Both the position numbers and the translations under genes were made by a program. Shown piece by piece: positions 20,256 to 35,011 of a stretch of DNA of 64,000 nucleotides (position 1 is its first letter; every line of letters begins with the position of its first letter). This stretch comes from Nitrospirota bacterium (GTDB lineage: Bacteria > Nitrospirota > Thermodesulfovibrionia > Thermodesulfovibrionales > Magnetobacteriaceae). The notes beneath the pieces are model-generated. The model did no database searches. It saw only the letters and a program-made list of their open reading frames with translations, and had not been told where the DNA came from. The stretch lies in assembly GCA_015233015.1 (NCBI GenBank), contig JADFYO010000004.1:33826-97825 (forward strand), in the 5' to 3' direction.

Positions 20256-21647
20256 ATGAAAATTGTCCTTATAAACATCTCATTAAGGCCTGAGGCGAAG
20301 AGGAGAGAGCTTCCCGTAGGGCTTGCCTATATACTTACGGCCGTTAAGAAGGCAGGATTTGATTTCGACTTTATAGATATGGATATAAACGATATTACGA
20401 TGCCGCAGCTGGAAGAGATTTTATCTAAGACTACCTATGACGTGTGTGCATTCGGCTGCATTGTTACGGGGTTTAAGTTCGCAATACAGATAGCCAAAAT
20501 CGTAAAAAAGATTAACCCCCAAACAGTAATTATTGCTGGCAACTCCCTCAGCACCTCAATTCCTGAACTACTCCTAAATAACACAGAGGTTGACATAGGC
20601 GTTATGTCCGAAGGGGATATCACTATCGTGGAGCTTTTGCAAGTTCTTGAGAATAAAAAACCGTTGTCAGGTGTCAAGGGCATTGTGTATAGAGAAAATG
20701 GAAAGATAGTGTTCACCCCCGACCGCCCTGCGATTGCTAATTTGGATGAAATTGGCTTTCCCGACTGGGGTATATTTGATCTGGAGAAGTATAAAGAGTA
20801 CTCTTATATAAACATGGATGTTACCAGTACCGACAATGTACTATCATTTCCTCTGAATTCTGCAAGGGGCTGCCCACATAGGTGCAGCTTCTGTTATCAC
20901 GTCTTCAAGGAAAAAAAATACAGGAAATATTCAAAGCAGGCAATAATGGATGAAGTAAAACGTCTTCATTATGAATACGGTTGTGATTTTGTATCCTTTT
21001 GGGACGAGTTGACTTTTGCCAACATTCAAAGTGCCAAAGATATGTTAGATGGATTCAGCAAACTGGACTTCAGGATAGGATGGGATGCCATAACCAGAGG
21101 CGACGTGTTTAAAAAAGAACACGTAAGTTTGATAAAGGATTTAAAGGCCGTCGGCTGTGATAATATTAAATATTCACTCGAAAATGCCAGTGAAGAAATC
21201 CTCGCCGCTATGAATAAGAAAATCAATGTGGCACAGTTCATCGAACAGTCAAAGGCCATTTGGGAAGGCGGATGTGTCCCGTTTACGTCCGTCGTGTTCG
21301 GATATCCGCAAGAAACGCCCGAAAGCATTAAAAAAACCATAGATGTATGCGAGGAATGCAACATATTTCCAAGCGTAGGCTTCCTCCTTCCTCTGCCCGC
21401 CACTCCAATATACGAATGGGCAAGGGAAAACGGCTATATCACCGACGAAGTGGCATATCTGAAGAGAATTGGAGACAGGCAGGACTTCCATATCAATATG
21501 ACAAAGATGTCAGACGAACAGTATATCGGCACTGTGACAGATTGTCTTGTGGCGCTTGCAAAGAAAATGGGATTACAGTTCGACTCAGTTTTTAAAACCG
21601 TTAGATATACAAAACCAAAAATAATGAGTTCCTCCGGCACAGGGTGA
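20256..21647 (+). CDS. B12-binding-domain radical SAM protein
   Basis: LPVGLAYILTAVKKAGFDFDFIDMDIND; GCPHRCSFC. Confidence 0.9.
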   Translation: MKIVLINISLRPEAKRRELPVGLAYILTAVKKAGFDFDFIDMDINDITMPQLEEILSKTTYDVCAFGCIVTGFKFAIQIAKIVKKINPQTVIIAGNSLSTSIPELLLNNTEVDIGVMSEGDITIVELLQVLENKKPLSGVKGIVYRENGKIVFTPDRPAIANLDEIGFPDWGIFDLEKYKEYSYINMDVTSTDNVLSFPLNSARGCPHRCSFCYHVFKEKKYRKYSKQAIMDEVKRLHYEYGCDFVSFWDELTFANIQSAKDMLDGFSKLDFRIGWDAITRGDVFKKEHVSLIKDLKAVGCDNIKYSLENASEEILAAMNKKINVAQFIEQSKAIWEGGCVPFTSVVFGYPQETPESIKKTIDVCEECNIFPSVGFLLPLPATPIYEWARENGYITDEVAYLKRIGDRQDFHINMTKMSDEQYIGTVTDCLVALAKKMGLQFDSVFKTVRYTKPKIMSSSGTG

Positions 21648-21682
21648 TTTTTGAAGAATAAGCCGCCCGATGGCAGATTCTT

Positions 21683-23563
21683 ATGATGACAGAAGAAGAA
21701 ATATGCAAGCGCATCGCGTTTTTTCAGGATTTGTTTACAAGAAAGGGTAATGTTTTCAAATCTGCCAGTGAGGTGCTGTCATTATCTGCAAAGTTCACCA
21801 GGATAGAGCAGTTATACAATCGGCACGAAAACGCTAAATCATTGATACCTAAGAAAATAGCAGTCCTCGCCCCATTTACAACCCACTATCTGAAAATGAT
21901 GCTGAAAATATATCTGTACAGAGATGGCATCTTACCATCTTTTTATGACGATAAATATGACAGTATCACAGCGGATTTGATAGATACTAATAGTGAGTTG
22001 TTTTCCTTTAACCCGGATATTCTGTTATTATGGACTTATCATACCGATATAAAACAATATCCTGATTTGTTTTCTACCGAGGCTGAAATTAAGAGTTGGG
22101 TCGATAATATCGTAGGGTATTATAAAAGGTTATGGGCTTTGTCTGCGAACATAAAGGGTTGTTCTGTTTTTCAAACAAATTTTGTTTCCCCCATATATCG
22201 CCAGCTTGGAAATATGGAAGCTAATTACTTATTTTCTAAGACTAATTGCTTAAATAAACTGAATATGGAACTTATTCTGAATAAAGCGCCTCACGTCAAT
22301 TTTGTCGATGTCGATTACTTAGCCTCATATATTGGTAAAGAAAGATGGTTCGACGAATCCAGTTACCTGATAAGTAAACAGGGGTTGTCAGCTGTTGCAA
22401 CGAACCTTTCGGCCAGAGTTATATCAAATCTGTTAGCAGCCGGTATTGGTAAAATAAAGAAATGTCTGGTGTTGGATTTAGATAATACTATATGGGGAGG
22501 CGTGGTTGGCGATGTGGGTGCAGAGGGGATAAATGTCAACCCTAACGATCCCCTGGGTGAGGCGTATCTCGCATTTCAGAAATACGTAATGGAGCTGAAA
22601 AGCAGGGGTGTAATTCTTGCGGTGTGCAGTAAAAATGACGAGGCTATTGCAAAAGAGCCCTTTACGTACTACAGCGATATGTATATAAAACTTGATGATA
22701 TTTCATGTTTTGTAGCAAACTGGAACGATAAAGCCACAAACTTGGCAGATATAGCTAACACGTTGAATATAGGCATAGATTCATTGGTGTTTTTTGATGA
22801 CAATCCGGTAGAAAGAGAGATAGTAAGGCAATACCTTCCCGATGTGACTGTTATAGACGTACCTGATGACCCGGCAATGTATGTACGCGTCATGGAAGAG
22901 GCTATGTGTTTTAACTGGCTTGCACTCAGTAAAGAGGATGTCATTCGATCTGATTCATACGTACAGGACCAGAAACGCAAGGTGTCGGAATCCTTTTACA
23001 TTGATTATGATTCTTACCTTAAGTCATTAGACATGAGGGCAAAAACAGGATATGCCGGCATGTCAGAAATACCACGGGTGGTTCAGTTAATAAATAAGAG
23101 TAATCAGTTCAATTTGAGAACAAGGCGTTATAGTGAAGCGGAAGTTATTCATATGCTTGATAATCCTGGAGAGAAAAGGATTTTATTTATAGATTTTAAT
23201 GACCGGTTTGGCGCCTATGGTGTTATTTCTGCGCTTATAGTGATAAAAAATGACGATACCGCGTTTATAGATACATGGGTGATGAGTTGCAGGGTGTTTA
23301 AGCGCGGCATTGAATATTTGGCAGTCAATATGATTTATGATGTAGCTCATAGTTGGGATTGCCAATGGATAACAGGCGAATATTCACCTACTCAGAAGAA
23401 TAAAATAGTAAGCACATTGTATGATGATTTAGGATTTGAAAGATTATCGCCGGAAGAGTTCGGTTATTCAGAACATGCGGGCGTTTTATTCCGTTGCAAT
23501 ATATCCAATATAGTTCCAAAACATCATCATATACATGTCGAATCAATGAATTCATTTTCATAA
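21683..23563 (+). CDS. FkbH-like HAD-IIIC family protein (with C-terminal acyltransferase-like region)
   Basis: CLVLDLDNTIWGGVVGDVG, GVILAVCSKND, FFDDNPVERE; C-terminal VVQLINKSNQFNLRTRRYSEAEV and DRFGAYGVISALIV. Confidence 0.9.
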   Translation: MMTEEEICKRIAFFQDLFTRKGNVFKSASEVLSLSAKFTRIEQLYNRHENAKSLIPKKIAVLAPFTTHYLKMMLKIYLYRDGILPSFYDDKYDSITADLIDTNSELFSFNPDILLLWTYHTDIKQYPDLFSTEAEIKSWVDNIVGYYKRLWALSANIKGCSVFQTNFVSPIYRQLGNMEANYLFSKTNCLNKLNMELILNKAPHVNFVDVDYLASYIGKERWFDESSYLISKQGLSAVATNLSARVISNLLAAGIGKIKKCLVLDLDNTIWGGVVGDVGAEGINVNPNDPLGEAYLAFQKYVMELKSRGVILAVCSKNDEAIAKEPFTYYSDMYIKLDDISCFVANWNDKATNLADIANTLNIGIDSLVFFDDNPVEREIVRQYLPDVTVIDVPDDPAMYVRVMEEAMCFNWLALSKEDVIRSDSYVQDQKRKVSESFYIDYDSYLKSLDMRAKTGYAGMSEIPRVVQLINKSNQFNLRTRRYSEAEVIHMLDNPGEKRILFIDFNDRFGAYGVISALIVIKNDDTAFIDTWVMSCRVFKRGIEYLAVNMIYDVAHSWDCQWITGEYSPTQKNKIVSTLYDDLGFERLSPEEFGYSEHAGVLFRCNISNIVPKHHHIHVESMNSFS

Positions 23564-23573
23564 TGAGAGGATA

Positions 23574-23822
23574 ATGGAGACTAAAGAACGTTTGGAGCAA
23601 ATATTCAGAGATGTTTTCGATGATGACGGTCTCAATATTTCCGATGAGATGATAATCGCCGATATTGAGAGATGGGATTCATTTATGCATGTGCAGCTGG
23701 TTATTGCGATTGAAGAGGCATTTGGAGTAAAGTTCGAAATAGCAGAAGCTGTTAAATTTAAAGACATAGGGGATATCCGGCGTATGCTTGAGGAAAAAAT
23801 AGCCGCCAATACACATAACTGA
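23574..23822 (+). CDS. Acyl carrier protein
   Basis: 82 aa; IERWDSFMHVQLVIAIEEAFGVKFE phosphopantetheine site (WDS-F). Confidence 0.88.
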   Translation: METKERLEQIFRDVFDDDGLNISDEMIIADIERWDSFMHVQLVIAIEEAFGVKFEIAEAVKFKDIGDIRRMLEEKIAANTHN

Positions 23823-25129
23823 TGGATAGTTTTGATTATAACACATTTATCGGTAGAATCTGGTTTGAGCGCAGAGACATAGTTTCCGGCGGTTATGACA
23901 GGTCGCTTAATTATATAAAAGGGATTTTCCCTGAGATGGAAATCCATAGTTATCCAAGCGGGACAAATGTGTGGACTTGGGTTATTCCCGAAAAATGGTC
24001 TGTCAAATCGGCATATATAAAAGCCGGCAATAAGATACTGCTTGACCTCGATGACCATCCTTTGCATGTCATGTCATATTCTACTCCATTTTCCGGCAGC
24101 ATATCACAGGAAGAGCTAATGTCTCACTTACATACCCGCTGCGAATATCCCGATGCGATACCGTTTGAATTCTCATATTATCAGCCAAAATGGGGATTTT
24201 GCATTCAACACGACAAATTAAAGGATTTTACTTTTAAAAAATATGATGTGTTAATAGACTCAACGTTTGAGCGTGGGGAGTTAAAAGTAGGGTGTTATTA
24301 TATAAAAGGCAGGATTGACAAAGAAATTGTTATTATCGCGCACCTATGCCATCCATGTATGGTTGACGACGGCCTTTCCGGCGTGGCGGTTCTCCTTAAA
24401 ATAGCCGATTTTTGTAAGAACAATGATAATTATTATTCTTACAGATTCTTAATTCTTCCCGAAACAATCGGCTCTATAGCATATTTAAGCCATAATGAGC
24501 ACATTATAGAGAAACTGCAATATGGTATTTTCCTCGAGATGCTTGGCCATGACGACCTGTTCAGCCTTCAGAGGTCCATTCAGGGAAATACACTCATCGA
24601 TAGGGCGGCATTTCTGAGCCTGAAACAAAATACCACTGAATTTCGGGCCGGCGGTTTTTATGATGTAGTTGGAAATGACGAAAGAGTTTTTAACGGCATA
24701 GGGGTCAACGTTCCTACCATTTCCATAAGCCGTTCCAATTTCTGGAGTAACGGCCACTATCCAGAGTATCACACAAGCGCCGACACGCCGGATATAATCA
24801 CGGCAGGGAGATTAATAGAGGCACAAGCCATCGTAATCAATCTGCTGAAAATGCTGAACCTTAATTATTACCCTAAGGCCATAGTCAAAGGCCCTATTTT
24901 CCTGACGCGATACGGACTTTGGGTAGATTGGAGGATTGATGCTTCCTTAAACGCTAAGCAGGAGATGATATTCAATTATTTGCACTATGGAAAGAAAAGC
25001 ATTATAGATATAGCATATGAGTTGGATTTAAGCTTTGACCAGGTAAAAAACTGGCTTGATAAGTTCTATGAAAATAATCTGATAGAAAAACTCTCATCTG
25101 CGCACGCCATTAAACGTGAAGATGATTAG
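23822..25129 (+). CDS. DUF4910-type (M28-like) putative aminopeptidase with C-terminal winged-helix-like segment
   Basis: IVIIAHLCHPCMVDDGLSGVAVLL, LPETIGSIAYLSHNE; C-terminal SIIDIAYELDLSFDQVKNWLDKFYENNLIEK. Confidence 0.8.
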   Translation: MDSFDYNTFIGRIWFERRDIVSGGYDRSLNYIKGIFPEMEIHSYPSGTNVWTWVIPEKWSVKSAYIKAGNKILLDLDDHPLHVMSYSTPFSGSISQEELMSHLHTRCEYPDAIPFEFSYYQPKWGFCIQHDKLKDFTFKKYDVLIDSTFERGELKVGCYYIKGRIDKEIVIIAHLCHPCMVDDGLSGVAVLLKIADFCKNNDNYYSYRFLILPETIGSIAYLSHNEHIIEKLQYGIFLEMLGHDDLFSLQRSIQGNTLIDRAAFLSLKQNTTEFRAGGFYDVVGNDERVFNGIGVNVPTISISRSNFWSNGHYPEYHTSADTPDIITAGRLIEAQAIVINLLKMLNLNYYPKAIVKGPIFLTRYGLWVDWRIDASLNAKQEMIFNYLHYGKKSIIDIAYELDLSFDQVKNWLDKFYENNLIEKLSSAHAIKREDD

Positions 25130-25949
25130 CAAAGGGACATCACATGAGAAGCACCAACGAATCGAGAGTTTAACCGTCGAATGGAAAGTGGCAGGTGTCT
25201 CGGAAGGAGATATGCTCCTTTTGCAAAGCAATATCATAAGGACTCTTTTAAGAACCGGGAATATGTTGAACCCGGCAGATGTGCTCCAATCATTCCTAAA
25301 CGCATTGGGCAGTAAAGGGACATTGTTATTGCCTCTTTTTAACTTTGACTTTGCTAAAGGCATTCCCTTTGACATAAGAAACACTGTTTCACGCATGGGG
25401 AGTTTAACCGAGGCCGGGAGAAAATATCCTGGGGCAGTCAGAACCGGCCATCCTATGGCTTCTTTCGCAGCCATAGGATATGATGCCGGGCTTTTCGAGA
25501 ATCTTAACAACTACAGTGCTTATGGCAGCGAATCTCCGCTTGCTATACTAAAAGAAAATAATGGGAAGTTATCTGTCCTGGATCTGGAAGACCAGGATGG
25601 TATGACGTTTTATCACCATGTGGAGGAAGTGGCTGAAGTAGATTACAGGTATTATAAAAGTTTTACAGGGCAATATATTACATACGATGGCACAACGGAG
25701 GTGCGGGAATACGGTTTTTACGTCAGGAATCTTGATCTGCAAGTCGAAAACCAATTTAATCCCATGGGAGAGTTGTTGTGGGCAGAGGGGCTGTACAAAG
25801 GATTCAAACCTTTTCAGGGATGCGGCCTTAGGACAGTATATTCAAAGGATGTTTTTGATAAAACGATGGAAGTTATAAAAAATGGAGAGGCTACTAAATA
25901 TTTGATGTCTTATGGTAAACTTAACGGCAATGCTCAGGGGAAACAGTAA
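25116..25949 (+). CDS. AAC(3)-family N-acyltransferase-like protein
   Basis: GDMLLLQSNIIRTLL..., NALGSKGTLLLPLFNFDF, GHPMASFAAIG, DGMTFYHHVEEVAEVDYRYYK. Confidence 0.85.
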   Translation: MKMISKGTSHEKHQRIESLTVEWKVAGVSEGDMLLLQSNIIRTLLRTGNMLNPADVLQSFLNALGSKGTLLLPLFNFDFAKGIPFDIRNTVSRMGSLTEAGRKYPGAVRTGHPMASFAAIGYDAGLFENLNNYSAYGSESPLAILKENNGKLSVLDLEDQDGMTFYHHVEEVAEVDYRYYKSFTGQYITYDGTTEVREYGFYVRNLDLQVENQFNPMGELLWAEGLYKGFKPFQGCGLRTVYSKDVFDKTMEVIKNGEATKYLMSYGKLNGNAQGKQ

Positions 25950-25965
25950 ATGTTATTTTGAGACA

Positions 25966-26040
25966 CTTGAAAAGAAAATGATATATAGAGTTCGATTTGG
26001 TCTTGAAACGGTTAGATATACAAAACCAAATAATGAGTTC
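25966..26040 (+). pseudogene. Fossil 3' end of a radical SAM gene (decayed copy of the 21647 gene terminus)
   Basis: Shares GTTAGATATACAAAACCAAA (26011-26030) and TAATGAGTTC (26031-26040) with 21600-21619 and 21622-21631; weaker similarity extends upstream (CTTGAAAAGAAAATG). Confidence 0.75.
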
Positions 26041-26050
26041 AAGGTGATGT

Positions 26051-27817
26051 TTGGCAAATAAGGCGCTGATATTGCATACAATAGCGGATGTTCGGCACTG
26101 TGTTGACAACTCCCTCTACAAAGGCCGCCTCCTGTTTTGCACTCACTCCAGCGTCGAAGTTTATTTAAAGGATGCGCTTTCAGTGGAATGCAGATGTCTC
26201 AGCAGTTTTTTTTCCAACGAAGAAGTCCTTTGTCTTATGGACAGCGCCTCAGATGCCGTAGATAAAATTCTGGATTCCCTCGATGAACATGTCTCTCCTT
26301 CATTAAACGAACGGTATGGTCTTAAAATGAATTTTTTCCGGTGTCTTTACTCTTACAATGGCAAGCATCAATATCTGGGGTATTTAGTTCTGTCCGGGGC
26401 CATAAGAAAAATATCGGAGATTTTTGATTTGACGGAGATTTCCTTGTTTGATTATAAGTTTGACAAACTTATCGATACAGACAAATCTTTGAGAGACACC
26501 ATCTCTTTACTGTTTAAAAACGTAGATGTCATAACTTATCAAAAGAAGATAGAATCCAAAGGCGGTAAGGTTCTCTTTAATATTGTAAAAAGAATAAGAC
26601 AGAGACCCTTACATTCCGTTGAGAAGCTGGTTGGACAACTTATATTGGAACTGAAGCATAGAGTATTTTCAAAGGGGAAAAAGACCATATTAATTTATGG
26701 ACACTTATATGAGCTGGATTTTTTGATTAATAGACTTGATAAATACAATGTCATATCCTATAACTACAACAGCTGCATCCCTGCCGGATTTAAGTCTAAG
26801 GAATACGTTTCTGACGTGAGTGTCGATTATCGTAATTTTGAAGACGATATCAATGACAGCATTGCGGCTGTGTTCCTCAGTGATTTGAAATCAGATTTCG
26901 ATACAAATATCAATAAATATTTGAATGCTGTCCTGTTGCTTAGAGACATACAGGGGAAATACCCGATTTCTTTAGGAATCTGGGGTAACAGCCCTGTTTA
27001 TGGAATAAAGGCATGTATTGTCGGGTATTTATTATCTGAAGGCATAACAACGCTTGGGGCACAGCACGGCTGTCTTGTTGGAGATTCCTACAAGCCCTGG
27101 CACTTCGATATCGAACTCGACCGATGCACTACATTCATAAGTTACGGCTTTACGGAGGAAGACCTGAAAAGACTCTACCCCGATAAAGTGCAATGCCCGG
27201 AAATTGTCCCGCTCGGCAAAGTAAAACTCCCGAATTTTAAAAAGGCCAACAAAACAATAGACATCCTGTTTCCCCTGCAAAGCAGCACTTCTATGTTCGA
27301 AGGCGGCATGGACGCCACCCTGCCTCATAAGCTCACTGAAAGACAAATAGCAATACTTAATTATTTGAATGGGTTAAAAGGTCTTAAAATTTACGTAAAA
27401 CCATTCATGAACTCAAACTATGACAACTGTTCTGTGCTTCCGGTATTAAAAAAGATGAATAATTTAACGGTGGTTTACGATATGGTATTGTTAGAGTTTC
27501 TGGAGAGGTATCATTCGGCCGCCATAGTTATGGAGCTGCCCTCACAGCCGCTTTTTGAAGTCCTGCATATGGATTCTGAGATATTTCTCATGAACTGCGA
27601 GCTGCATCCATATGAAGACCAGGCGCTGTCCGAGCTGTTAAAGCGTGTCCACTACGCATACGACACAGGGGAATTAATTGCCATGTTAGAATTATATATA
27701 AGCGGCAGGCTCCAAAAGAAGCGTGATCAGACTTTTTTCCATCACTATGTTTACAAAGAACACACAAAGAGAAATATATATAAATTAATTGACCGTCTTA
27801 GTGAAGGCCAGAGATAA
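26051..27817 (+). CDS. Putative surface-carbohydrate transferase (GT-B/LIC12162-like); TTG start
   Basis: LGIWGNSP...GAQHGCLVGDSYKPWHF, FISYGFTEEDLKRLYPDK. Sits between acyl-modification genes and a flippase. Confidence 0.5.
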   Translation: MANKALILHTIADVRHCVDNSLYKGRLLFCTHSSVEVYLKDALSVECRCLSSFFSNEEVLCLMDSASDAVDKILDSLDEHVSPSLNERYGLKMNFFRCLYSYNGKHQYLGYLVLSGAIRKISEIFDLTEISLFDYKFDKLIDTDKSLRDTISLLFKNVDVITYQKKIESKGGKVLFNIVKRIRQRPLHSVEKLVGQLILELKHRVFSKGKKTILIYGHLYELDFLINRLDKYNVISYNYNSCIPAGFKSKEYVSDVSVDYRNFEDDINDSIAAVFLSDLKSDFDTNINKYLNAVLLLRDIQGKYPISLGIWGNSPVYGIKACIVGYLLSEGITTLGAQHGCLVGDSYKPWHFDIELDRCTTFISYGFTEEDLKRLYPDKVQCPEIVPLGKVKLPNFKKANKTIDILFPLQSSTSMFEGGMDATLPHKLTERQIAILNYLNGLKGLKIYVKPFMNSNYDNCSVLPVLKKMNNLTVVYDMVLLEFLERYHSAAIVMELPSQPLFEVLHMDSEIFLMNCELHPYEDQALSELLKRVHYAYDTGELIAMLELYISGRLQKKRDQTFFHHYVYKEHTKRNIYKLIDRLSEGQR

Positions 27818-29374: not shown

Positions 29375-30103
29375 ATGATAGCTGCTGTGTTGATGGGAAG
29401 AAAGGGAAGCAAAGGCTTTCCGGGAAAGAATCTGCATCCATTATTTGGTAAACCTCTTGCTTATTTCCCGATGAAGGCCGCACACGATACCCCTGAAATA
29501 GATAAAACATATATATCGACCGACGATGAAAGGCTTATTGCCCTTGCAAATGAAAACTCTGTCGGGGTAATCATAAGACCTCCTGAGCTTTGCACCGACG
29601 CCGCCCTCGGTGAAGACGTTTATAAACACGCATATGGCGTTATCAGGCAGCTCAACCCTGACAAGGAAATAGAACTTATAGTGCTGCTCATGTGTAACGC
29701 GCCGACCATAACCCCTGCCATTATTTCTGAGGGTGTGAAGGTTTTGCGGGAAAATCTGGAGTATGATTCGGCGGTCAGCGTATCGAGGTACAACATGTGG
29801 AGTCCTCTTCGCGCCCGGAAAATCGACTCAGACGGGCTGCTGAAACCCTTTGTCCCTTTTGAGACGTTTGGAGACCCTAAGACGCTGAACTGCGACAGGG
29901 ACTCTCAGGGGGATGTGTGGTTTGCCGACATGGGGGCGTCGATTGTGCGCCCGCGGTGTCTGGAAAACCTCGAGGACGGCCTTCTGCCGCAGAAATGGAT
30001 GGGGCAGAAAATATACCCGCTTCAGCAATGGGGCGGCTTCGATATCGACTACGAATGGCAAATCCCGATGGCGGTATATTGGCTTAAGAAGCATGGGATT
30101 TAA
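29375..30103 (+). CDS. Acylneuraminate cytidylyltransferase-like CMP-sugar synthetase
   Basis: MGRKGSKGFPGKNLHPLFGKPLAYFPMKAA; FDIDYEWQIPMA. Confidence 0.85.
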   Translation: MIAAVLMGRKGSKGFPGKNLHPLFGKPLAYFPMKAAHDTPEIDKTYISTDDERLIALANENSVGVIIRPPELCTDAALGEDVYKHAYGVIRQLNPDKEIELIVLLMCNAPTITPAIISEGVKVLRENLEYDSAVSVSRYNMWSPLRARKIDSDGLLKPFVPFETFGDPKTLNCDRDSQGDVWFADMGASIVRPRCLENLEDGLLPQKWMGQKIYPLQQWGGFDIDYEWQIPMAVYWLKKHGI

Positions 30104-31067: not shown

Positions 31068-31430
31068 GTGACGGCTGAAAAATGTTCCAACTCCGCAAGC
31101 GCCGCAAAGACTGACCCCATAGTGGCCGAATTTTTACGCGGCATCGCATCCCTGAATGATCAGATAAGGGAAATATATCTATTCGGTTCGCGAACCCGTA
31201 CGGATTGGCGGCCTGACTCTGATTACGATATATTGATTGTCGCCGATAAAAAAGATCGGCTTATTAAAGATAAACTCTATGACTCTGTGATGGACATATT
31301 ATTGGAAACAGGAAAGCTGGTATCCCTGAAGATATTTCAAACTAACGAATTTATCAGATTAAAGTCAATTCCAACACCGTTTATGGAAAATGTCATGAGA
31401 GAAGGTATTAAACTTGAAATCCTCGGATAA
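31068..31430 (+). CDS. MNT-type nucleotidyltransferase domain protein
   Basis: LFGSRTRTDWRPDSDYDILIV; GTG start; overlaps downstream HEPN gene. Confidence 0.85.
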   Translation: MTAEKCSNSASAAKTDPIVAEFLRGIASLNDQIREIYLFGSRTRTDWRPDSDYDILIVADKKDRLIKDKLYDSVMDILLETGKLVSLKIFQTNEFIRLKSIPTPFMENVMREGIKLEILG

Positions 31431-31818
31431 GGAATTAGTAAAGGGCTACGTTCAAAAGGCACAGAAGAAGCTGGAGGTTGCCAAGAGGCTCTTTACAAAC
31501 GGCGACTATGAAGACTCCGTGTCCCGCTCGTATTATGCTGTGTTTCACGCGGCTCAAGGACTTCTCTTAACCGAAGGTGAGCACGCAAGCACACACAAAG
31601 GTGTGCTGACCCTGTTCAGCCTCTTGTTTGTAAAGACCGGCAGGTTTATGAAAAACTTAGGTAAATATTTGTCGAATTTAAAAGACGACAGAGAAAGCGG
31701 CGATTATGAGATTTTCTCATATATCGACGAGGACACAGCAGATACGGCACTAAGAGAGGCCGAAGAGTTTATCAATCAAACCATCTTATACCTACAGAAA
31801 ACGGGACTAATGGATTAA
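31414..31818 (+). CDS. HEPN domain protein
   Basis: SVSRSYYAVFHAAQGLL (R-x6-H type HEPN motif); coupled to MNT gene. Confidence 0.85.
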   Translation: MKSSDKELVKGYVQKAQKKLEVAKRLFTNGDYEDSVSRSYYAVFHAAQGLLLTEGEHASTHKGVLTLFSLLFVKTGRFMKNLGKYLSNLKDDRESGDYEIFSYIDEDTADTALREAEEFINQTILYLQKTGLMD

Positions 31819-31836
31819 AATATATGACCGCAAGTG

Positions 31837-32490
31837 CTACCTATCGAGGGCATTTATTACATCGTGAAGTTCGGTCAGGTCATTAATCCTGATACAGGTC
31901 ACACCGTTAAATATATCAACATCTCCCCTTTCTCTGGCGATAAACGGGACTAGGTTCGACCGTGCTGCCTTGTAGTCGCTCATTGCGTCGCCGACATAAA
32001 CCGCTTTGCCGGGGCTTACGCCATGCGTGTCGAGGATTTCCTTTACAATTGCGGCCTTCTTTTTTGGGGCACCGTGGACTGCCTTAAAATACTCATCCAT
32101 ATGTCTGCGTCTTATTATCTGCTCTATCTCTCCCTGCGGTGTGGCGGTTGAAACAAAACACTGATAAACGCTCCGGGCGAAGTTATCCAGAAACTCCCTC
32201 GCCCCCCTCACAAACGGCGCAATAGAGACCTCATCCACAACAAGGCCGGCAAATTCCCCGCAAAGGGCATCAAACCGCTCACCAGTGAGCGGCCTCTCTA
32301 AGATATGTTCATAAATATAGCGAAACTTGTCGAACCTCGACACCCCCGCGTTTTGCAGGTGAAACTCAACGACCCTGTCCATAACGTCCTGCCCCTCAGG
32401 CTCAAAGAGCTTAGCAAATGCCCGCGTTTTTATATCGACCGATTCAACAAGTACACCGTCAAAATCAAAAATTATAGAGTTGATCATCAA
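31837..32490 (-). CDS. HAD-family hydrolase (beta-phosphoglucomutase-like fold)
   Basis: SIIFDFDGVLVESVDIK; VYVGDAMSDYKAA. Confidence 0.85.
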   Translation of the reverse strand: MMINSIIFDFDGVLVESVDIKTRAFAKLFEPEGQDVMDRVVEFHLQNAGVSRFDKFRYIYEHILERPLTGERFDALCGEFAGLVVDEVSIAPFVRGAREFLDNFARSVYQCFVSTATPQGEIEQIIRRRHMDEYFKAVHGAPKKKAAIVKEILDTHGVSPGKAVYVGDAMSDYKAARSNLVPFIARERGDVDIFNGVTCIRINDLTELHDVINALDR

Positions 32491-32527
32491 ATCCCTGGAT
32501 TAATCATCAAATAACCCTAATGGCATT

Positions 32528-33187
32528 CTAACCATCAAACAAGCCTACAACGGTGCAGGGAGCGCTGTCAAGTCCTTCTATACGCAGGGGAAGCACTACG
32601 ACTTCCCTCAATGATTCAAGCTCCATTGACAGGTTCATATCCTCAATCAGTAAAATCGTGGCGTTTCGCCCGCCGGGGTCTAAAAATGCCCTATGTGTAT
32701 GCCTTCCCAACTGACGGTCAGCATATGGGGATACAGATATCCAGTCTAACCCTACTGCGCGCAGATGTGGATATGTGCTTCGTAAATAAAGCCCCACTTC
32801 CGGGTCAATACCGGGATTTGATTTAACATATGCCTCCTCGTGCCTGCGTTTGCCCCAGTTTGATTGTATAAGCAGGAGGTCTGTTTGGGGCATTATCTCA
32901 AGAGGCAATTTTATAACCTCCGATGGTTCTAACGAAACGCTCAGTACCTGGGGATTTTTAAAAAACCAAAACTCTGGCGGATACTCATAAACCTTCATGC
33001 CATTATCGAAAAAATGATTTGGTGCGTCCACATGCGTACCCCAGTGGTTTTCCATCGTAAATGAGGAGACATTTGCGGTGTCCCCGGCGGCGATTGATTT
33101 ACGCATTTTAATGTCAAGGGATTTCGTCCCGCCGTAAACGGGGTTATCTTTTTCTGCCAGCGCGTATGAGAGGTATTCGTATCTCAC
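32528..33187 (-). CDS. Cyclase/kynurenine formamidase-like family protein
   Basis: NHWGTHVDAPNHF motif of the cyclase family. Confidence 0.8.
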   Translation of the reverse strand: MRYEYLSYALAEKDNPVYGGTKSLDIKMRKSIAAGDTANVSSFTMENHWGTHVDAPNHFFDNGMKVYEYPPEFWFFKNPQVLSVSLEPSEVIKLPLEIMPQTDLLLIQSNWGKRRHEEAYVKSNPGIDPEVGLYLRSTYPHLRAVGLDWISVSPYADRQLGRHTHRAFLDPGGRNATILLIEDMNLSMELESLREVVVLPLRIEGLDSAPCTVVGLFDG

Positions 33188-34110
33188 ATCAGGTCAGAGG
33201 GACTGGTTTTCAATGATATCTCGTTATATAATTCGTGTATCGTCTCGAGAATACCCTGTCCAAGGTCAACATAGGTGCGGGAGGTCAACCGCCGGCCGAG
33301 TTTCGGGGCAAATGAATAAGGGGTTATCTCGTAGTGCAGGCCGCTGTTTGGCGGGAGAAATTCGAGTTCGATCTTATTGTCGAACATCTCCTTTATCATG
33401 AGCAGGAGGTCTTTTATCCTCATCTTTTGGTAGCCAGTTATGATTATGTGCTGATTAGCGAACTCCTCGTCAAGTATCTCGACACTGCCTCTTGCCGCGT
33501 CGTGGACATGGACATATTCCCTGAGTTCTTCGCCGTCGCCGTGGCGGGTTATCTTCCCTTCTTCAAGTGCCTGCGTTAACATTGAATGGATGTAGTTTGT
33601 GCTGTCCGCCCGTGGGCCATAGAGTGAGCCGAAACGCAGTATCGTATAGGGCAGACCAAAAAGCTCCCTGTAGTTTTCGATTAACAGCTCACAGGCCTGT
33701 TTGGTGCTTCTGTATATGGAACCTGCCTTAGAATAAACGTAAAGAGAACTGGCAAAGACAAATCTCTTTACGTCTGCCTTTCGACACGCCTCCAGTATGA
33801 TAGTGTTTCCAAGTATGTTGCTTCTGACGCTATCAAGTGGCTTATTGCTTGCCTCGTCTATGTCGGCGATACCGGCAAAGTTATAGACGTAATCACACCC
33901 GTTTACAACCGCCTCAACTGCCCGCTCATCTAAGATGTCGCCGATTACCATTTGCTGTGAGCCGATCAAATAACGGGATTGTCTTATGTCATAAATAAAC
34001 ACCTCATAGCCTGAGGCGTCAAGCACATCCGCCACATGGCTTCCCATGAAGCCCGCTCCGCCAAATACCGCAACCCTGTTTGCCTGACTTGGCATATTAT
34101 AATTTACCAA
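33184..34110 (-). CDS. NAD-dependent nucleotide-sugar epimerase/dehydratase
   Basis: VAVFGGAGFMGSHVADVL; FASSLYVYSK...YRSTK; LRFGSLYGPR. Confidence 0.88.
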   Translation of the reverse strand: MVNYNMPSQANRVAVFGGAGFMGSHVADVLDASGYEVFIYDIRQSRYLIGSQQMVIGDILDERAVEAVVNGCDYVYNFAGIADIDEASNKPLDSVRSNILGNTIILEACRKADVKRFVFASSLYVYSKAGSIYRSTKQACELLIENYRELFGLPYTILRFGSLYGPRADSTNYIHSMLTQALEEGKITRHGDGEELREYVHVHDAARGSVEILDEEFANQHIIITGYQKMRIKDLLLMIKEMFDNKIELEFLPPNSGLHYEITPYSFAPKLGRRLTSRTYVDLGQGILETIHELYNEISLKTSPSDLM

Positions 34111-35011
34111 GCCCCTTCAACAGGTTTTCCGTAGATAGCAGCTCCATTTCAACGCGCGATTCAACCGCGTATGAGCCTATGTGAGGGGTGAGAATGGTGT
34201 TCCTTAACTCCCGCAGCCTGCCGTCATATGGCTCTCGCCCGAACACGTCTATGGCCGCGCCGCCAAGTCGTCCGCTTTTTAAACTCTCAAACAGAGCGTC
34301 TTCATCGACCACCCCGCCGCGTGCCACGTTTATGAGCCAGCTGCCTTTTCTCATCAGAGCAATCTCATCTGCTCCCAAGATCAGATCCTTCGTGTTGACA
34401 TGAATAATTACTATATCGGCAAAGTCGAGAAGCTCATGCAGGGATAACTTTTTTACATGCTGAAACGGCTCGTCCCCGACAAACGGGTCGGTAAATGCTA
34501 TGGCACATCCTAATGACTGTAACAATGACGCAGATGCCCTACCAATGCGGCCAAAGCCGATGATTCCGACGTTTTTCCCGATTAGCAGATTACCCATGAG
34601 TTTTTCCCACTTACCGGCCCTGATGGCGGAGTCCATTTCGCTGATTTTTCTGAGGAGATTTAATATCAGGCCGGCGGTCAGTTCAGCAACGGCGCGCGTG
34701 GGGGCGTCGGGTGTGTTAAAGACCTCTACGCCAAGCCCTTTGGCCGCTTCCATATCAACATTGTCAAGCCCTGTGCCGCATCTGGAGATAACCTTCAATC
34801 CAGGCAGGCCCTCAAGCACATCGGCACTAAGGGGTTCAGTCCCTGCGATAATGCCGGCTGAGCCGAGGCAGAGTTCGATAATCTCTTCTTTTTTTAGTTT
34901 TCGCCCGTACGGGTTTAGTGCAATTTCAAAGTCAGAACGCAGAGGTGCCAGCGGCTTGTCATCGTACTTGCCGAAGGACGATGTCGTTATAGATATTTTT
35001 GCCTTTTTCAA
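34097..35011 (-). CDS. D-2-hydroxyacid dehydrogenase (phosphoglycerate dehydrogenase-like)
   Basis: VISRCGTGLDNVDMEAAK, VGIIGFGRIGRASASLL, INVARGGVVDEDAL, TPHIGSY. Confidence 0.9.
   Translation of the reverse strand: MKKAKISITTSSFGKYDDKPLAPLRSDFEIALNPYGRKLKKEEIIELCLGSAGIIAGTEPLSADVLEGLPGLKVISRCGTGLDNVDMEAAKGLGVEVFNTPDAPTRAVAELTAGLILNLLRKISEMDSAIRAGKWEKLMGNLLIGKNVGIIGFGRIGRASASLLQSLGCAIAFTDPFVGDEPFQHVKKLSLHELLDFADIVIIHVNTKDLILGADEIALMRKGSWLINVARGGVVDEDALFESLKSGRLGGAAIDVFGREPYDGRLRELRNTILTPHIGSYAVESRVEMELLSTENLLKGLGKL

Follow-up and report, generated by a model that had tools for sequence, protein, structure and literature searches.

The cassette and its four proteins

A 64,000-nucleotide stretch of the genome of a Nitrospirota bacterium (here called the window, meaning the whole stretch) contains four consecutive genes at 21683-25949 that encode an FkbH-type HAD protein, a free acyl carrier protein (ACP), a DUF4910 protein and an AAC(3)-like N-acyltransferase (Table 1). 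An earlier note on this DNA had described four tightly packed, partly overlapping genes here, and all four were confirmed at these positions. The FkbH gene lies 35 bp behind a radical SAM gene and 10 bp ahead of the ACP gene, the ACP and DUF4910 genes overlap by 1 base, and the DUF4910 and AAC(3) genes by 14 bases, an operon-like spacing. The genome (3.78 Mb, 149 contigs) encodes a single DUF4910, a single FkbH and a single PF02522 protein, all in this cassette.

The FkbH protein matches TIGR01686 at 277 bits (cut-off 147) and carries the FkbH_N domain (PF21211), and its HAD motifs (D265xD267NT, S316-K317-N318 and D372-D373) are invariant across five relatives. The ACP matches PF00550 at 23.7 bits (cut-off 20.8) and has a WDSF motif. 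An FkbH domain above the curated score, with its HAD motifs, stands here beside a free ACP, the arrangement of FkbH glyceryl-loading enzymes, and loading of the ACP with glyceryl is its predicted function. ACPs of the same type occur at other FkbH loci (L021, L074, L081, L082, L087, L089 and L090). It is accepted that polyketide pathways obtain their glyceryl-ACP from FkbH and a free ACP, and the window shares both with Mad7/Mad8 of tetromadurin, where the glyceryl comes from 1,3-bisphosphoglycerate (PMC7489565). Unlike tetromadurin-type pathways, the window has no polyketide synthase (PKS) and no FabH-like tetronate enzyme, and its predicted acceptor is an amino sugar. A different FkbH-fed cluster was seen in the same genus (G007, locus L119, 94-4472), made up of FkbH, a methyltransferase, a MaoC-type gene and an MBOAT O-acyltransferase. 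A link to phages was rejected, the FkbH matches in the phage collection being two unannotated metagenome records only.

The DUF4910 protein matches PF16254 at 230 bits, PF09940 and, weakly, M28, and aligns with PDB 3k9t (CA_C2195 of C. acetobutylicum) at E=2.8e-63. In CA_C2195 the catalytic Asp and Glu of M28 enzymes are replaced by Ser191 and Pro225, and one zinc is bound by His189, Asp195 and His324 (PMC4000134). In the window protein the two catalytic positions are occupied by Cys179 and Pro213, and the metal ligands are retained as His177, Asp183 and His317. The M28-type motifs had been reported as intact in the earlier note, wrongly, as both catalytic residues are missing; the protein is M28-like in fold and, because of these two substitutions, cannot be named an M28 peptidase on its sequence. 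Among 54 DUF4910 members adjoining an AAC(3) gene, the catalytic positions hold Ser in 50 and Pro in 53, and the His ligands, Glu214, Asp286 and Glu287 are conserved. Where CA_C2195 has the zinc ligand Asp195, 48 of these 54 have Asn (L010 and L013, for example) and the window protein has Asp. We propose that DUF4910 is a sugar N-deacylase or acyl exchanger.

The AAC(3)-like protein matches PF02522 at 96 bits, and its best score against the NCBIfam AAC(3) models is 67 bits (cut-off 270), far under every curated cut-off for the resistance enzymes. It shares the fold family of the AAC(3) aminoglycoside N-acetyltransferases and keeps the region around their D..MT..HH..E motif, but it scores below those cut-offs and falls in a clade of its own that is linked to DUF4910. 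We propose that it is the N-acyltransferase acting on the acceptor. The folds of DUF4910 and AAC(3) are already supplied by 3k9t and by AAC(3) structures.

Empty sites, flanking repeat and surrounding genes

Six congeners have an orthologue, 66-84% identical, of the radical SAM gene that precedes the cassette. In five of them (G001, G002, G004, G005 and G006) this gene directly abuts the orthologue of a 588-aa gene, with gaps of -4 to +15 bp, and none of FkbH, ACP, DUF4910 and AAC(3) lies between the two. The 4.3-kb cassette of the window occupies exactly this junction. It is flanked by a direct repeat of about 110 bp, in which 91 of 125 aligned columns are identical (73%); the repeat scores 55.5, compared with 9.2 +/- 2.0 as background elsewhere in the window and a next best unrelated score of 20.5. 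The radical SAM 3' end is single-copy in relatives, and parts of both window copies (ATATACAAAACC) are more alike each other than the copy of the relatives, which points to duplication in the window lineage. The downstream copy is a scar of cassette gain or duplication. Taken with the empty sites, the repeat indicates that the four genes were gained as a single piece, or lost as one in the relatives by recombination between such repeats. The suggestion that the four genes form one system is thus upheld as far as their behaviour as a unit is concerned. The locus has undergone rearrangement among the congeners.

Two B12-radical SAM genes lie upstream of the cassette, and a flippase-like gene, a PseF-like cytidylyltransferase gene and a radical SAM-SPASM gene downstream. 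Pfam matches agree with the radical SAM and flippase neighbours and the lack of PKS and nonribosomal peptide synthetase (NRPS) genes described before: neither PKS nor NRPS was found among 29 window proteins scanned (7.6-47.1 kb). No methyltransferase family was matched by Pfam among the recognised window genes between 13.1 and 44.3 kb. The 588-aa protein had no match in Pfam, NCBIfam or a PDB profile search.

Table 1. Position of the cassette genes, the flanking repeat and neighbouring genes in the window
Feature	Coordinates	Strand	Basis
FkbH-type HAD protein, 626 aa	21683..23563	+	TIGR01686, PF21211
Free acyl carrier protein (ACP), 82 aa	23574..23822	+	PF00550; Ser in WDSF
DUF4910 protein, 435 aa, M28-like fold, winged-helix tail	23822..25129	+	PF16254; PDB 3k9t
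AAC(3)-like N-acyltransferase, 277 aa, DUF4910-linked clade	25116..25949	+	PF02522
Upstream direct-repeat copy (radical SAM 3' end and following bases)	21542..21665	+	73% identity to 25953-26065
Downstream direct-repeat copy, degenerate radical SAM 3' end after AAC(3) stop	25953..26065	+	Alignment to 21542-21665
B12-binding radical SAM protein, host gene of locus	20256..21647	+	PF04055, PF02310
588-aa protein, family unassigned, first gene after cassette	26051..27817	+	Conserved neighbour in congeners
PseF-like CMP-sugar synthetase, locus context	29375..30103	+	PF02348; TIGR03584 70 bits, under cut-off 206

Two further groups of genes adjoin the glycan locus. A nucleotidyltransferase gene (MNT-like, PF18765) is paired with a HEPN gene at 31068-31818, a probable toxin-antitoxin type module, and the MNT-like gene is also found in congener G006 (L115). 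A minus-strand operon at 31837-35011 encodes a HAD phosphatase, a cyclase-family hydrolase, an epimerase and a 2-hydroxyacid dehydrogenase; it is conserved in the same congener locus, there directly upstream of the radical SAM gene.

Recurrence in other genomes and closest known systems

A survey of 84,980 species, with loci selected by AAC(3) subfamily alone, gave 55 loci, many of them from metagenome-assembled genomes; all four query proteins were taken from loci linked to DUF4910, so that the counts describe that clade, not all AAC(3) proteins. The loci are spread over Pseudomonadota, Thermodesulfobacteriota, Chloroflexota, Bacteroidota, Verrucomicrobiota, Acidobacteriota, Planctomycetota and Nitrospinota, and reach the cultured archaeon Methanospirillum stamsii. 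Of the 55, 50 contain DUF4910; it lies no more than 300 bp from AAC(3) in 44, and 41 have the two genes as same-strand neighbours. FkbH was found near the pair in 2 of the 55 loci and an ACP of the cassette type in 3, a number that rises slightly with a broader ACP profile; in 44 of 58 loci the surrounding 5 kb showed no gene of donor type. The ancient core is thus the AAC(3)-DUF4910 pair, as DUF4910 is nearly always present and FkbH rarely, with FkbH and ACP as a donor add-on.

A tree of 76 AAC(3) proteins, which has long branches, groups 55 rows including the window protein in one clade (support 100/99). In this clade 51 rows lie near DUF4910 only and one, the window protein, near both DUF4910, which adjoins it, and FkbH. 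Eleven AAC(3) proteins outside the clade, from plasmids and the same phylum, have neither DUF4910 nor FkbH nearby. PseB, PseC or PseI occurs in 16 to 19 of the 55 survey loci. The idea that AAC(3) simply replaces PseH was rejected as a general rule, PseH being also present in about 10 paired loci with pse genes; no PseH was seen in paired loci L013, L041, L044, L050, L052, L054, L057 and L058. Another carrier-protein supply lies beside an AAC(3)-like enzyme on plasmid pDCAR1 of Solidesulfovibrio carbinolicus (L096, 2227-5798), where genes for an adenylation-domain protein, an ACP and an AAC(3)-family enzyme stand in a row.

The four families do recur together, which goes against the lack of co-occurrence that the earlier note had named as refuting its reading. 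A member of another genus of the same family (G011) has a radical SAM orthologue (44%), DUF4910, FkbH, a MaoC-type gene, ACP and AAC(3) in one stretch adjoining PseB, PseC and a NeuB-family synthase, and a Burkholderiaceae metagenome-assembled genome (L074) has PseI, PseC, ACP, FkbH, AAC(3) in two pieces and DUF4910. FkbH, AAC(3) and DUF4910 lie within 3 kb in G064, whereas FkbH, ACP and AAC(3) occur without DUF4910 in G009 and G303. AAC(3) is fused to FkbH in three plasmid records (L009, L011 and L012), two of which have DUF4910 close by while the examined stretch of L011 has none, and a fusion of AAC(3) to DUF4910 is also recorded (L019, G013). In the phylum PF02522 proteins were found in only 12 of 296 genomes; five of these 12 have DUF4910 within about 9 kb and four, the window included, have FkbH within 5 kb. 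Of the earlier expectation that the quartet is co-conserved, the recurrence stands, and the conserved unit is the AAC(3)-DUF4910 pair instead of the quartet.

The same families are known from two sugar loci. Cj1295 of Campylobacter jejuni is presumably a DUF4910 protein, an assignment made from its published 'aminopeptidase-like' annotation. In C. jejuni NCTC 11168, Cj1295 is needed for a pseudaminic acid in which a 2,3-di-O-methylglyceroyl amide replaces the acetyl at C5, and Hitchen et al. (2010) proposed that it cleaves the acetamido group (PMC3068675). Cj1296/7 is an AAC(3)-family gene (PMC3025981, PMC5135748), adjacent by number to Cj1295, and cj1302 carries an fkbH domain; strain 12664, in which cj1302 is a pseudogene, has no glyceroyl-type sugar modification, and strain 12661 lacks it too, but is without cj1301 instead (PMC7099621). 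Three enzyme families are therefore shared, and the window brings together FkbH, ACP, DUF4910 and AAC(3), the gene content of a C. jejuni-type cassette for glyceroyl-nonulosonic acid. The C. jejuni system differs in its phase-variable tracts, flagellin target and methylation, whereas the window has a compact four-gene run among radical SAM and export genes with no adjoining O-methyltransferase recognised, an absence that concerns only the methyl groups of the di-O-methyl form. In Clostridium acetobutylicum, CA_C2195 to CA_C2199 hold DUF4910, an N-acetyltransferase, acpA and an acetyltransferase-HAD fusion, for which Das et al. (2014) proposed a sugar-modifying role (PMC4000134). This set, in one sugar locus with a NeuB homologue, differs from the window in gene order, in the fused acyltransferase-HAD protein and in DUF4910 proteins that are only distantly similar. 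No paper uniting these parts into one pathway was found, and a literature search for AAC(3) with pseudaminic acid gave no match.

Proposed function and alternatives

The acceptor is likeliest a nonulosonic acid or a close relative, to judge from the genes around the locus in relatives and from the window genome itself. In the congeners, the neighbours of the radical SAM gene include a NeuB-family synthase in G001 and G007, a PseG-like protein in G001 and G005 and, in G001, also a GNAT. In G158, PseC, radical SAM, PseF- and PseG-type genes, PseI (491 bits) and DUF4910 occur together; AAC(3) and a gene orthologous to the radical SAM-SPASM gene of the window come further along. On its contig C80 the window genome has genes for PseI (479 bits, cut-off 340) and PseG (206 bits, cut-off 154). 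Nonulosonic acid biosynthesis is therefore present in the same genome and linked to the locus in relatives (G011, G158, G001, G005 and G007).

We hold with middling confidence that the cassette is a plug-in N-acyl exchange system, by which a glyceryl group held on a carrier protein reaches an amino sugar of the nonulosonic-acid type. FkbH would load the three-carbon glyceryl from 1,3-bisphosphoglycerate onto the free ACP, as its family predicts. DUF4910 would strip the N-acyl group already on the sugar, most probably the acetyl carried over from GlcNAc, through its own single-metal site, in line with what has been proposed for Cj1295. The AAC(3)-like enzyme would then transfer the ACP-borne glyceryl, or a derivative, to the freed amine, and the surrounding surface-glycan genes would activate and export the decorated sugar. 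The pairing of a deacylase with an acyltransferase would explain why AAC(3) and DUF4910 travel together even without FkbH, and the gene content of some loci suggests that other donor genes (MaoC, SDR) serve the pair there. A glyceryl-derived N-acyl group on an amino sugar, as the earlier note had envisaged, gains support from C. jejuni, in which such a product is tied genetically to the same families. Its analogy with aminoglycoside-style protection is unsupported, and acetyl removal fits better than its trimming of the product by a peptidase, because the C. jejuni glyceroyl sits at N5, which is acetylated in the basal sugar.

Several points weigh against this proposal. FkbH proteins can also supply other acyl groups, such as methoxymalonyl and hydroxyacyl units. 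The rarity of FkbH and of other donor-type genes beside the pair suggests that it usually functions without FkbH and ACP. DUF4910 lacks the M28 catalytic Asp and Glu, and no recognised NeuB or PseB/C lies within the window, the nonulosonic acid genes being on other contigs. The role of AAC(3) is the weakest link of the mechanism: Hitchen et al. (PMC3068675) typed two flagellin variants and list the Cj1296/7 tract as out of frame in each, so that in C. jejuni AAC(3) may not be the glyceroyl transferase, and another acyltransferase or DUF4910 itself would transfer the group.

The C. jejuni reading frame leads to the alternative in which DUF4910 is itself a transacylase that swaps acetyl for carrier-borne glyceryl, AAC(3) being accessory or acylating another amine. 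Cj1295 is needed while Cj1296/7 reads out of frame, the M28 hydrolytic residues are gone and the metal ligands kept, transacylation was suggested by Das et al. (PMC4000134), and most DUF4910-holding genomes of the phylum have it without AAC(3). We nevertheless consider this improbable for the window, given the FkbH-ACP-AAC(3) sets without DUF4910 and the AAC(3)-FkbH fusions, one of them with no DUF4910 in the stretch examined. Similarly unlikely, in our view, is that the acyl group is another hydroxyacyl (3-hydroxybutyryl or a further-processed glyceryl, for example) and the acceptor another amino sugar of capsule or O-antigen. MaoC and SDR (FabG-type) genes do adjoin AAC(3)-DUF4910 pairs in several loci, together with FkbH in L009, L012 and L021; DUF4910 occurs with rfbC-type genes in L017, L018, L020, L087 and L089, and pse genes were not seen within 10 kb of many paired loci. 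No MaoC or SDR gene adjoins the window cassette, however, and in the congeners, in G011 and in G158 the same locus lies among NeuB-, PseG- and PseC-type genes. That four unrelated surface-glycan genes came together by chance, AAC(3) being a resistance-like acetyltransferase, would suit a locus rearranged among congeners and families not always found together, but is very improbable and was rejected in view of the unit gain or loss with flanking repeats, the repeated clustering and fusions, and the separation of the AAC(3) clade from the eleven other proteins sampled.

The cassette families were already linked to a glyceroyl-type sugar in Campylobacter, and the window set is clearly a further member of this kind. 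To the question of how bacteria replace the acetyl on pseudaminic and related acids by other acyl groups, the comparison contributes AAC(3) as a partner enzyme that recurs and FkbH with ACP as a route to the donor. What is new is that the set behaves as a unit with a scar, that a core pair can be told apart from a donor add-on, and that a division of tasks open to testing is proposed; the entire reaction could be reconstituted in vitro from four small proteins. More tentatively than the exchange proposed for the window, AAC(3)-like and DUF4910 proteins may form a two-gene module, widespread and so far undescribed, for N-acyl exchange on surface amino sugars of bacteria and archaea. In it one enzyme would strip acetyl and the other install a new acyl group, the donor suppliers would be interchangeable (FkbH/ACP here, MaoC/SDR elsewhere), and cassettes would be gained or lost whole. 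The genes of this clade, which carry the AAC(3) annotation 'response to antibiotic', probably serve in sugar tailoring rather than resistance.

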